Shown: positions 6,447 through 10,104 of the stretch, in pieces
Layout of the letters: each line of letters opens with the position of its first letter
Numbering within the stretch: position 1 is the first letter of the stretch
Source: Kribbella sindirgiensis
GTDB lineage: Bacteria > Actinomycetota > Actinomycetes > Propionibacteriales > Kribbellaceae
Assembly (NCBI RefSeq): GCF_004331435.1
Contig: NZ_SJKA01000010.1
Coordinates: forward strand, 124,001-188,000
Length of the DNA: 64,000 bases
Direction: 5' to 3'
Translations under genes and position numbers: made by a program
The notes under the pieces: model-generated
Seen by the model: the letters and a program-made list of their open reading frames with translations, nothing else
Database searches by the model: none
What the model was told of the DNA's origin: nothing

Positions 6447-8228
6447 GTGTTGCGGGTCGCGATCTGGGAGGAGCCGGGCATCTTCGCGCTGTCCGTGCTC
6501 GCCGCCATGCTGTACGGCGCGATGACCGTCGCCGGCGGCTGGGCGCTCGGCTGGTCCACCGACCATCTGATCCGCCCGTCGTTCGAGCGTGGTGACACCA
6601 CCGGCGGCACGATCGCGGCGCTGATCTCGCTGTTCATGGGGATCGCGATCCTGAACGCGATCGGCGTCGTCGGGCGGCGGCTCGGGGCCGGCGTCATGCA
6701 GTTCCGGCTGCAGGCGACGTACCGCCGCCGGGTCACCCGGCAGTACCTGAAGCTCCCGCTGGAGTGGCACCACCAGCACTCGACCGGCATGTTGCTGTCG
6801 AACGCCAACGCCGACGTGGAGTCGACCTGGTTCGTGATCGCGCCGCTGCCGATGGCGATCGGCGTGATCGCGATGCTGGTGTTCGCGACGATCGCGATGT
6901 TCGCGGCCGACGTCTGGCTCGCGCTGGTGGGGTGCCTGGTGTTCCCGCTGGTCTTCGTCGCGAACGTGATCTTCCAGCGCTACCTGCAGCCGCTCGCGAC
7001 CCGCGCGCAGCAACTCCGCGCGGAGGTCTCCGAGGTCGCGCACGAGTCGTTCGACGGCGCTCTGGTGGTGAAGACGCTGGGCCGCGAGGCCGCCGAGACG
7101 GAGCGGTTCCGCGCGCCGACGTACGCGCTCCGGGACGCGAACATCGCGGTGAACAAGGCCCGCGGCATGTTCGACCCGGTGATCGACGGCCTGCCCAGGC
7201 TCGGCGTGCTCGCGGTGCTGCTGGTCGGCGTCGGGCGGGTACGGTCCGGCGGCGCGGACGCGGGGGACGTGGTCCAGGTGGCGTTCCTGTTCACGTTGAT
7301 CGGCTTCCCGATCCGGGCTCTCGGCTGGGTCCTCGGCGAGCTGCCCCGATCGGTCGTCGGGTGGGACCGCGTGCAGCGGGTGCTGACCGCCGAGGGCGGG
7401 ACGGAGTACGGCGAGGCGCGGCTGACGTCGACGAAAGCGGCCCGGCTGCAGGTCGCCGGCGTCCGGTTCGGGTACCTGCCGGAGCGCGACGTACTGGCCG
7501 GTGTCGACTTCACGATCGAGCCCGGCCGGACCGTCGCGGTCGTCGGGCCGACGGGCGCCGGGAAGTCGACGCTCACCACGCTGCTGACGCGACTTGTCGA
7601 CCCGGAGACCGGGGCGGTGAAGGTGGACGGGATCGACCTGCGGGACCTGGCGCGCGACGAGCTGGCCGGATCGGTCGCGCTGGTGGCGCAGACCGCGTTC
7701 CTGTTCGACGACACGATCCGCGGCAACATCACACTCGGCGGGGATTACAGCGACGACGACGTGTGGGACGCGCTGCGGATCGCGCAGGGCGACGGCTTCG
7801 TGAAGGCGATGCCGGACGGGCTGGACACCAAGGTCGGCGAGCGCGGTACGACGCTGTCCGGCGGGCAGCGGCAGCGGATCGCGCTCGCGCGGGCCCTGGT
7901 ACGGCGGCCGCGGTTGCTGATCCTGGACGACGCGACGAGCGCGGTGGACCCGCAGGTCGAGGCACGGATCCTCGCGGGCCTGCGCACCGCGGTCCAGGAG
8001 GACGCCGGCGCGGCGACGACGGTGCTGGTGATCGCCTACCGGAAGGCGACGATCTCGCTCGCCGACGAGGTGCTGTTCCTGGACGAGGGCCGGATCCAGG
8101 CGCACGGCACCCATACCGAACTGCAGGCGTCCACTCCCGCCTACCGGGACCTGGTGGACGCGTACGAGAAGGACGCCGAACGCCGCCAGGAAGAAGCAGA
8201 ACTCGACGAAGAAGAGGTGTCGGCCTGA
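6447..8228 (+). CDS. ABC exporter half-transporter, subunit 1 (degenerate ATP site)
   Basis: The GTG start is set by GGAGAGG 7 nt upstream and gives 593 residues; the longer open frame upstream lacks family similarity. Six transmembrane helices occupy roughly residues 15-300. The nucleotide-binding domain has Walker A GPTGAGKST near 368, the signature LSGGQRQRIALARAL near 470 and Walker B LLILDDATSAVD near 490. The usual catalytic Glu after Walker B is Asp and the switch His is Tyr (VIAYRKAT). With subunit 2 this predicts a heterodimeric exporter having one consensus and one degenerate ATP site. Substrate unknown. Confidence 0.9.
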   Translation: MLRVAIWEEPGIFALSVLAAMLYGAMTVAGGWALGWSTDHLIRPSFERGDTTGGTIAALISLFMGIAILNAIGVVGRRLGAGVMQFRLQATYRRRVTRQYLKLPLEWHHQHSTGMLLSNANADVESTWFVIAPLPMAIGVIAMLVFATIAMFAADVWLALVGCLVFPLVFVANVIFQRYLQPLATRAQQLRAEVSEVAHESFDGALVVKTLGREAAETERFRAPTYALRDANIAVNKARGMFDPVIDGLPRLGVLAVLLVGVGRVRSGGADAGDVVQVAFLFTLIGFPIRALGWVLGELPRSVVGWDRVQRVLTAEGGTEYGEARLTSTKAARLQVAGVRFGYLPERDVLAGVDFTIEPGRTVAVVGPTGAGKSTLTTLLTRLVDPETGAVKVDGIDLRDLARDELAGSVALVAQTAFLFDDTIRGNITLGGDYSDDDVWDALRIAQGDGFVKAMPDGLDTKVGERGTTLSGGQRQRIALARALVRRPRLLILDDATSAVDPQVEARILAGLRTAVQEDAGAATTVLVIAYRKATISLADEVLFLDEGRIQAHGTHTELQASTPAYRDLVDAYEKDAERRQEEAELDEEEVSA

Positions 8229-8267
8229 TGAGCGAGCGGAGCGAGTTCATCGTCAAGCACAGCGCCA

Positions 8268-8319
8268 CGCCGCGCTCATCCGCGCCCGGAGCGAAGCGAG
8301 GACGCGGATGAGCGCGGCG
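8268..8319. repeat. 17-bp perfect inverted repeat overlapping a start codon
   Basis: The arms at 8268-8284 and 8303-8319 are perfect complements (right arm CGCGGATGAGCGCGGCG). The 18-nt loop is purine-rich (GGAGCGAAGCGAGG). The right arm contains the ATG (8308) of exporter subunit 2 and the loop contains its likely ribosome-binding site. The element begins just after the subunit 1 stop. A 27-codon reading frame (8228-8311, MSERSEFIVKHS...) bridges the two genes, with ATGA overlaps at both ends. Confidence 0.85.
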
Positions 8320-10104
8320 GAGGCGTCCCGGCTGGACCACGGTGACGACGCGGGTGGGCTTCAGACCCTCAAGGACGGGCTGAAGGTCTCGCCCGAGCTC
8401 GCGCGCGGGTGGTGGCTGACCGGGTTGCTCGCGCTGACGATGACGGCCGGGCGGATCGTCGTACCGATCGCGGTGCAGCAGACGATCGACAAGGGCCTGT
8501 CCGGCGCGGGCGGCCCCGACATGTCGTACGTCGCCTGGATGTGCCTGGTGTGCGCGCTGGGCGTGATCCTCACCGCAGGAGCGTCGTACCTGACGACCGT
8601 GCGGCTCGCGGTCAACTCGGAGCACGGGCTCGCGACGATGCGGATCAAGGCGTTCCGGCACGTGCACGACCTGCCGGTGCTGACCCAGAGCACCGAGCGC
8701 CGCGGCGCGCTGGTCAGCCGGGTCACGTCGGACGTGGACACGGTGTCGCAGTTCCTGCAGTTCGGCGGGTTCATCTTCCTGGTCAGCATCGGGCAGATGG
8801 TGCTCGCGACAGTCGTGATGTTCTTCTACTCGTGGCAGCTCGCACTGGTCGTGCTGCTGTGCTTCATCCCGCTGTTCGCCAGCCTGAAGTACCTGCAGCG
8901 CGCGATGTCGAAGGCGTACGGCGTGGTGCGGGCCAAGGTCGGCGAGATGCTGTCCGCGATCGCGGAGCCGGTGGTGGGCGCGCAGGTGGTGCGCTCGTAC
9001 GCGATCCAGCAGCGCACGCAGGACCGGATCGACGCGTCGATCGAGGACTACCGGAAGACCGCGACGAGGGCGCAGGCGCTGACCGGCGTAACCTTCTCGA
9101 TCGGTGGTCTGGCGGCCGGTCTCGCGAACGCCGGCGTGCTGACCGTCGGCGTACTGCTCGGCATCGACGGGAAGGCGACGCTGGGGGAGCTGCTCGCGTT
9201 CATGTTCCTGGTGGCGCTGTTCTCGGACCCGGTGCAGATCGCCACCCAGGTGCTGACCGACGCGCAGAGCGCGTTCGCCGGCTGGCGGCGGGTGCTCGGC
9301 GTGATCGCCACACCGGCCGATGTCGCGGACCCGGGCGACGACGGCGTGAAGCAGGCGCGCGGACCGATCACGGTCGAGTTCGACGACGTCGATTTCGCTT
9401 ATCCGGAAGGCGAACTGGTGCTGCGCGACGTCCGCGTCCGGATCGAACCGCACCGCCGGGTCGCGGTGGTCGGGGAGACCGGGTCCGGCAAGACGACGTT
9501 CGCGAAGTTGCTGACCCGGCTGATGGATCCGACGTCCGGGGCGGTGCGGCTGGACGGCGTGGACGCTCGGGAGATCTCGTTCGAGTCGCTGCGGGAGCGG
9601 GTCGTGATGGTGCCCCAGGACGGGTACCTGTTCGACGCGTCGCTGGCGGAGAACGTGCGGTTCGGGCGGCCCGAGGTGACGGACGCGCAGCTGGTCACGG
9701 CGTTCGAGTCGCTCGGGCTGACGGAGTGGCTGGAGTCGCTGCCGGACGGGTTGCAGTCGCCGGTCGGGCAGCGCGGTGAGTCGTTGTCGGCGGGGGAGCG
9801 GCAGCTGGTGGCGCTGGTCCGCGCGAACATCGCCGACCCGGACCTGCTCGTCCTCGACGAGGCGACGTCAGCGGTCGATCCCGGTACGGAGGTGCGCGTG
9901 AACGCGGCGCTGGAGCGGCTGATGTCCGGCCGTACGTCGGTCACCATCGCCCACCGCCTGTCGACCGCCGAGGCCGCCGACGAGGTCCTGGTCTTCGACG
10001 AAGGCGAGATCGTGGAACGCGGTCCGCACGCCGATCTCGTCGGCGCGGGCGGCGTCTACACCCGCCTGCACGACAGCTGGATCGCCCAGCGCAGCGCCCT
10101 CTAG
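8308..10104 (+). CDS. ABC exporter half-transporter, subunit 2 (consensus Walker B)
   Basis: This 598-residue partner of the preceding gene has six helices (about residues 35-320) and a nucleotide-binding domain. Walker A is GETGSGKTT near 392, Walker B LLVLDEATSAVD near 515 has the catalytic Glu, and the switch motif TIAHRLST is intact. Its signature is LSAGE instead of LSGGQ, so the composite site made from subunit 1 Walker motifs and this signature is doubly degenerate. That is the pattern of asymmetric heterodimeric exporters such as TM287/288. The ATG lies inside the right arm of an inverted repeat. Confidence 0.9.
   Translation: MSAAEASRLDHGDDAGGLQTLKDGLKVSPELARGWWLTGLLALTMTAGRIVVPIAVQQTIDKGLSGAGGPDMSYVAWMCLVCALGVILTAGASYLTTVRLAVNSEHGLATMRIKAFRHVHDLPVLTQSTERRGALVSRVTSDVDTVSQFLQFGGFIFLVSIGQMVLATVVMFFYSWQLALVVLLCFIPLFASLKYLQRAMSKAYGVVRAKVGEMLSAIAEPVVGAQVVRSYAIQQRTQDRIDASIEDYRKTATRAQALTGVTFSIGGLAAGLANAGVLTVGVLLGIDGKATLGELLAFMFLVALFSDPVQIATQVLTDAQSAFAGWRRVLGVIATPADVADPGDDGVKQARGPITVEFDDVDFAYPEGELVLRDVRVRIEPHRRVAVVGETGSGKTTFAKLLTRLMDPTSGAVRLDGVDAREISFESLRERVVMVPQDGYLFDASLAENVRFGRPEVTDAQLVTAFESLGLTEWLESLPDGLQSPVGQRGESLSAGERQLVALVRANIADPDLLVLDEATSAVDPGTEVRVNAALERLMSGRTSVTIAHRLSTAEAADEVLVFDEGEIVERGPHADLVGAGGVYTRLHDSWIAQRSAL

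Follow-up and report, generated by a model that had tools for sequence, protein, structure and literature searches.

Why does the start codon of a transporter gene lie inside a long inverted repeat, behind an open reading frame (ORF) of only 27 codons, and does this arrangement belong to the operon or to something that arrived there? The question is raised by the junction of two ABC exporter genes in Kribbella sindirgiensis, within a 64,000-nucleotide (nt) stretch of contig NZ_SJKA01000010.1; this whole stretch is called the window here, and all positions are those of the window. We consider it highly probable that the segment between the two genes arrived by insertion and represents a mobile repeat that seeks out start codons, resembling the mycobacterial interspersed repetitive units (MIRUs), with the host genes kept expressed through ATGA coupling. 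The features of the junction are the following.

6450-8228, forward strand: ABC exporter subunit 1; Pfam ABC_membrane and ABC_tran on 6450-8225, TGA at 8226-8228 (6450 is where the translated part of the frame begins, not a called start).
8228-8312, forward strand: a copy of the dispersed element that sits at start codons (ATGA ... ATGAG); match of a sequence-only model, G000:C1:132228-132312, at 80.9 bits, this copy being one of the ten sequences that built the model.
8228-8311, forward strand: mini-ORF of 27 codons, MSERSEFIVKHSATPRSSAPGAKRGRG, ending on ATGA; read from the sequence, with a geometry that recurs in 140 of 141 copies.
8228-8250, forward strand: left hairpin, arms 8228-8233 and 8245-8250, with GCGGAGC in the loop (GCGNAGC type); predicted in the fold of 8200-8380, with covariation of columns 1x23 and 5x19.
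8268-8319, forward strand: right hairpin, perfect 17-bp arms 8268-8284 and 8303-8319, the pairing continuing for 7 bp inside the host gene after ATGAG; two positions show compensatory pairs across 79 loci.
8298-8302, forward strand: Shine-Dalgarno-like GAGGA, element-borne, 5 nt 5' of the right ATG and in the hairpin loop; read from the sequence.
8308-10104, forward strand: ABC exporter subunit 2, starting from the right end of the element; Pfam match, with GTG at that codon in most empty orthologues.

An inserted segment at the exporter junction

Both neighbouring genes are assigned as ABC half-transporters because they match ABC_membrane and ABC_tran, and relatives whose GTG or ATG start falls on the same codon support the start called for subunit 2. 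A8228 is common to the stop codon of subunit 1 and the ATG of the mini-ORF (TGATG), 80 nt run from this left start to the base preceding the right start, and the mini-ORF stop at 8309-8311 overlaps the subunit-2 ATG as ATGA (8308-8311). The inverted repeat extends over 8268-8287/8300-8319 with 95% identity over 20 nt (one mismatch), its outer 17 bp being perfect and including the subunit-2 start. A first-pass annotation of this DNA had described the overlapping stop and start, the 27-codon frame ending on ATGA, and the perfect 17-bp repeat that holds the ATG with a Shine-Dalgarno-like site in its loop, and all of these were confirmed. The RNA of 8200-8380 has a folding energy of -92.8 kcal/mol, whereas 200 shuffled sequences average -76.62 and none of them does as well (z -3.99). 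An Rfam search of 8100-8500 gave two matches far under their gathering scores (MIR9677 and Mcr7), both at the hairpin.

Comparison with orthologous sites shows the segment to be an insertion. Across Kribbella, 32 of 37 orthologous junctions consist of a plain GTGA or ATGA, and therefore the segment is not a conserved regulator of this operon; five carry the insert (G000, which is the window, G014, G019, G001 and G022). The filled junctions are scattered over the tree. All four nearest sisters of the window's genome are empty (support 100/99), as are the sisters of G014 (100/99), G001 (85/99) and G022 (100/100), this comparison covering these filled genomes rather than G019 with its sister G058. 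None of the five copies has its nearest relative among copies at the same locus, and the Fitch minimum on the tree is 5 changes at this junction. These data are most simply read as several independent insertions at a single start codon. Since most empty relatives have GTG at this position, the ATG of the right-hand start is supplied by the element.

Three further loci, for which 30 loci each were returned out of 38, 36 and 32 matching genomes and whose names come from reading the proteins, gave the same picture: the element occupies 4 of 30 sites at argR (one of them a relic), 5 of 30 at sseA and 4 of 30 at nuoG, with Fitch minima of 3, 4 and 3. Start-codon insertion is thus seen against empty sites at four loci. 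At many other loci the nearest copy sits at the same locus, so inheritance is common there. In the argR relic, L220 in G015, ArgR has the N-terminus MTERSELLNRHS through an in-frame fusion with the 5' half of the mini-ORF. The copy at the transporter junction of G022, L029, is a very different variant, with GGTGAAGGCATGAG on its left and GGTGGAGGCATGAG on its right, as would result from a duplication of ribosome-binding site and start; a near-duplicated stretch of 14 nt surrounds its starts.

At nuoG the empty sister G009 reads ATGACCCTG and the filled G021 reads ATGAGCTTG; at sseA the same pair reads ATGAATCCC and ATGAGTCCG. Because the base that follows ATGA differs from the sister's in both G021 insertions, the element may import the final G of ATGAG and perhaps one or two bases beyond it. 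No such difference from the sister is present after ATGA at the window junction or at sseA of G007 and G010. Among the 79 Kribbella loci described below, the arm base before CTCAT is linked with the two bases after ATGAG: T goes with CA in 22 of 25 cases and C in 5 of 48, the other 43 having bases other than CA (Fisher p 5e-11). Import of bases past ATGAG would account for this linkage.

A dispersed repeat that keeps the reading frame

In the organism's own genome, a 201-nt junction query matched the junction and six other places, the last one short. The GAGCGAAGCGAG-type motif on its own, taken in the first-pass annotation for a common one, is not enriched in this genome (AGCGARGCGAG 44 times, against 46 for the reversed control), and an exact stretch of the element matches Kribbella records only (13 of 13). 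A model built from the sequence of ten copies, with no hairpin included (R1), was run at E 0.01 on 38 Kribbella genomes and matched 36 of them; counts per genome range from 0 to 61 and add up to 515, and across this range G025 and G004 stand against G001 as a contrast within the genus that could help to find the mover. After removal of identical contexts and of hits near locus ends, 154 model hits in 195 loci left 141 distinct copies with flanks, mostly the best-scoring of the about 515 matches, which were grouped into 79 loci.

These copies share one orientation and a nearly invariant geometry. In 140 of 141 the mini-ORF terminates on the start to its right (the exception is L156), and that start opens at least 93 codons in 140 of 141 (the exception is L085), the downstream frame closing within the locus for 115. 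Mini-ORFs have 27 codons in 137 copies, 26 in three and 28 in one; element lengths are 80 nt in 137, 77 in three and 79 in one. The frame is kept: downstream, it is open for at least 90 codons at 78 of 79 loci, compared with 0 and 45 for the other two frames, while on the left an ORF of at least 100 codons ends on the TGA at 58 loci, compared with 14 and 4. By this control, most copies are located between coupled genes, and roughly one in four is at a start of another kind. The second codon of the host gene reads AGC or AGT for 137 of 141 copies, and GAGG or GAGT occurs in the last 14 nt of the element at 77 of 79 loci.

The first-pass annotation had allowed for an inserted repeat that happened to preserve coupling. 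An inserted repeat that keeps coupling it is, but not by chance: since 140 of 141 copies end on their right-hand start, the coupling geometry is a property of the element. As for the encoded peptide, the linkers of 76 full-length locus representatives differ from the consensus by 126 synonymous and 250 nonsynonymous changes (115.3 synonymous expected; 98 of 1000 simulations as high), and so there is no clear constraint on the mini-peptide. A peptide function for the mini-ORF thus finds no support in this linker.

Terminal hairpins and predicted start accessibility

The consensus folds into two hairpins that enclose both starts, with a small hairpin between. Hairpins at both ends are supported by compensatory changes, measured against shuffles that leave the shared ancestry of element subfamilies in place. 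The left hairpin pairs DTGARC with GYTCAY around GAGCGNAGCGAG. Its columns 1x23 are paired at 78 of 79 loci (A-T at 65, G-C at 12, G-T at one, and one A-C; shuffle mean 68.1) and columns 5x19 at 71 of 79 (shuffle mean 59.2), values that 0 of 5000 shuffles reach; columns 4x20 and 6x18 give little or no signal (127 and 801 of 5000), and 2x22 and 3x21 are invariant. The right hairpin, CTCATCCGCG..CC / GG..CGTGGATGAG, shows swaps between C-G and G-C at two positions, both paired at 79 of 79 loci (shuffle means 71.4 and 67.9; 0 of 2000 reach), whereas another position lacks pairing at 12 of 79 and there is hardly any variation at most of the rest. The minimum-energy fold of 8200-8380 includes the left hairpin of the window copy; that of 8228-8320 does not.

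The GA/GA bases that flank the GCGNAGC loop may form sheared pairs. The N of this loop is the third base of an Arg codon, so that the genetic code also accounts for its freedom. The related d(GCGAAGC) is described, in an excerpt of PMC10527192, as an extraordinarily stable mini-hairpin.

In the window copy and in L018, L021, L154/L168, L171, L172/L187 and L078, pairing of the right arm continues for 4-7 bp inside the host gene, and the other copies lack such pairing. As a general rule it was rejected: among the 79 locus representatives only 3 pair over at least 4 bp (0.09 on average in shuffles, none of 2000 giving as many), and 9 of 141 copies do so over at least 3 bp.

Accessibility was modelled with the region up to 24 nt before the ATG blocked or with the RNA free, means being taken over the first 40 of the 79 loci. 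The predicted probability that the ATG is unpaired rises on blocking from 0.000 to 0.825 in the window copy, and on average from 0.063 to 0.628. The earlier suggestion that folding would hide the start unless the mini-ORF is occupied thus agrees with prediction in silico.

Relatives outside Kribbella

A class-wide R1 search, made at E 0.001 with stricter filters over 394 genomes of 138 sampled genera, the window's own included, gave matches in 32 genomes and 17 genera, Kribbella among them. Thirty-five matches of at least 12 bits were considered, of which three without DTGA at the model start (L287, L309 and one of L312) were left out; the other 32, from 27 loci and some of them nested, are without exception mini-ORFs ending on ATGA or GTGA. 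Nearly all begin [MV]SERSE, [MV]NERSE or [MV]TERSE. Their right-hand frames have at least 93 codons, except in L303 (85), in one L300 match (52), and in L295 and L314, two tandems whose first units open 27 codons.

A PPE-rich genus, g15, is probably Mycobacterium. A second model (R2), built from 28 of 42 sequences, matches 53 of 396 genomes there at E 0.01 per genome, many of the matches being weak, and the left-end motif is present in 11 of 30 loci fetched. L324, L327, L329, L331, L333 and L352 are mini-ORFs ending on ATGA or GTGA ahead of an ORF of at least 320 codons, while in L323 (which has N runs), L325, L330 and L339 the left-end motif occurs with no coupled gene visible. Tandem units were seen in L295, L306, L312 and L314, and in L323, L333 and L352 of the probable Mycobacterium; some tandems form a single long fused frame (77 and 81 codons). 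In L336 (G715, also probable Mycobacterium) a 383-codon ORF starts MSERSERI..., which looks like an element start turned into a protein N-terminus.

Searches among plasmids and phages (E 0.01, words of 11) gave no match to 87 nt of the element. Viral contigs contained seven stretches with the left-end motif, and no full element lay within the 181 nt read around each; the IMG/VR contigs L316-L320 carry TGA[AG]CGAGCGNAGCGAG[CT]TCA hairpin motifs without the remainder of the element.

Proposed mechanism and alternatives

We propose that the element enters a gene at its DTG-A start, whereupon the old host start would become the start of the mini-ORF. The element would bring its own Shine-Dalgarno site together with a fresh ATG, which would overlap the stop of the mini-ORF as ATGA and from which the host gene would be read again, and its terminal hairpin would close over this new start. 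A ribosome translating the mini-ORF would open the hairpin, and termination at ATGA beside GAGGA would hand ribosomes to the host gene for re-initiation, with host gene expression staying tied to the level of the old start.

Several points weigh against this account. The consensus folds only moderately better than shuffles as RNA (4 of 200 as good) and not clearly better as DNA (32 of 200), all 200 shuffles fold better, with standard energies, than a left end of the class-wide type, and the ancestry retained in the covariation shuffles tempers the support for pairing. In the accessibility model, blocking the mini-ORF hardly alters the Shine-Dalgarno site (mean 0.392 to 0.429), and L187, one of five copies tested singly, gained no ATG accessibility. 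The left edge of the window copy is unusual, the subunit-1 stop and the ATG overlapping by 1 nt and two bases being extra relative to the sister genomes. Its second-nearest copy, L018 (0.887; nearest 0.912), comes from the same junction, so these two may share an origin, and an ancestral insertion followed by many precise losses is formally permissible. Worn copies are under-represented because the 141 copies are mostly the best-scoring, and no transposase was linked to the element.

How else might the junction be explained? That the segment is a conserved translational regulator setting the ratio of the two exporter subunits is suggested by a subunit-2 start within a very stable hairpin, by predicted accessibility that depends on mini-ORF occupancy, and by three of the five junction copies (the window, L018 and L021), which pair 7, 6 and 4 bp into the host gene. 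However, the orthologue comparison is a test that the first-pass annotation had itself named, and the segment's absence from 32 of 37 junctions, the four nearest sisters included, refutes it as a conserved function; the same element also precedes the unrelated genes argR, sseA and nuoG. An operon-specific stoichiometry device was rejected on the same count, and we consider a regulator of this kind very improbable, although a side effect on the exporter subunit ratio in this strain is possible. Overall, the interpretation in the first-pass annotation is partly supported.

The remaining alternatives concern how the element spreads. In the IS200/IS605 or repetitive extragenic palindrome (REP) model, hairpin ends carry cleavage sites with which internal guides pair, and a non-autonomous element moved by an HUH (Y1) transposase would be consistent with the subterminal hairpins at both ends, where TCAT or TCAC pairs with ATGA or GTGA on the left and TCAT with ATGA on the right, with the absence of long target duplications at most junctions, and with an ATG supplied by the element end even where empty relatives have GTG. 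Yet Y1_Tnp (PF01797), searched for with the Pfam model only, occurs in 1 of 38 Kribbella genomes, and in none of those with 61, 41, 40 and 36 matches; nor does a Y1 model predict the near-duplicated 14-nt stretch at L029. Y1-type mobilisation is therefore unsupported and appears improbable. The sole Y1_Tnp match is L322, in G031. A more credible route, if still an unlikely one, is spread that needs no dedicated enzyme: start codons (DTGAG plus hairpin) would recombine through short homology or serve in template switching, with a few donor bases past ATGAG copied along. It would fit the possibly imported bases just past ATGA at nuoG and sseA (G009 versus G021), the linkage of the arm base with the two bases after ATGAG, and the tandem units in relatives. 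Ordinary divergence could, however, account for both sister differences, the window junction and sseA of G007 and G010 match their sisters in the bases after ATGA, and a single orientation with a precision of 140 in 141 exceeds what unguided recombination would be expected to give.

Comparison with known systems

Among the matches listed in a literature search, to which most subscription journals were outside reach, we found no description of this element in Kribbella or of such an element outside mycobacteria. We tentatively suggest that the Actinomycetes harbour, across the class, a superfamily of parasites of start codons, to which MIRUs belong as one branch. Their hairpin ends (a GCGNAGC loop, perhaps with tandem G-A pairs) would read the target start by pairing, TCAT with ATGA and TCAC with GTGA; the same start codon would be hit repeatedly in different lineages, host first codons would be rewritten to Met-Ser, copies would decay into new N-termini (MSERSE...), and an enzyme not yet known would move them. 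The excerpts of PMC12548453 and PMC4213456 leave the movement of MIRUs unexplained, and soil bacteria that carry a family of hundreds of copies, with empty sites and several hits on the same start codon, make both mechanism and cost testable outside a pathogen. For annotation there is a warning, in that MSERSE-type N-termini may be relics of the element, and start codons called regardless of it may be wrong.

REPs, the bacterial interspersed mosaic elements (BIMEs) that they form, and the derivatives of IS200/IS605 are likewise small and mobile, have subterminal hairpins and recognise a short target motif. The Kribbella element resembles them in these traits but differs in carrying an ORF, in sitting at start codons, and in the presence of a Y1 transposase in only 1 of 38 genomes. 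Attenuators based on leader peptides or upstream ORFs likewise place a short upstream ORF and a hairpin before or over the next start, as is the case here; unlike them, the Kribbella segment is unconserved at its locus (5 of 37), is not tied to one gene and shows no significant constraint on its peptide.

The closest likeness is to MIRUs, which serve in strain typing and have DTGA as their target motif. According to a 2025 review, PMC12548453, citing Supply 1997, MIRUs appear mobile, insert at start codons, and have an ORF coupled to the gene with -4 nt spacing; PMC4213456 places 77-bp and 53-bp MIRUs between senX3 and regX3. The Kribbella element differs in its genus and its unit (80 nt, MxERSEF...), and may differ in its hairpins at both ends, which covary with the target start. 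It too is a short dispersed repeat, probably mobile, whose ORF lies at start codons with a 4-nt coupling overlap. Tandem units were seen in relatives outside Kribbella. The ends of its mini-ORF overlap the flanking stop and start (140 of 141 on the right; the left TGA at 58 of 79 loci), it is inserted at start codons relative to empty sites at four loci, and it is interspersed, with 0-61 matches per genome in 38 genomes. By these described features, rather than by sequence alignment, we liken it to the MIRUs of M. tuberculosis, and it would seem to work as they do.

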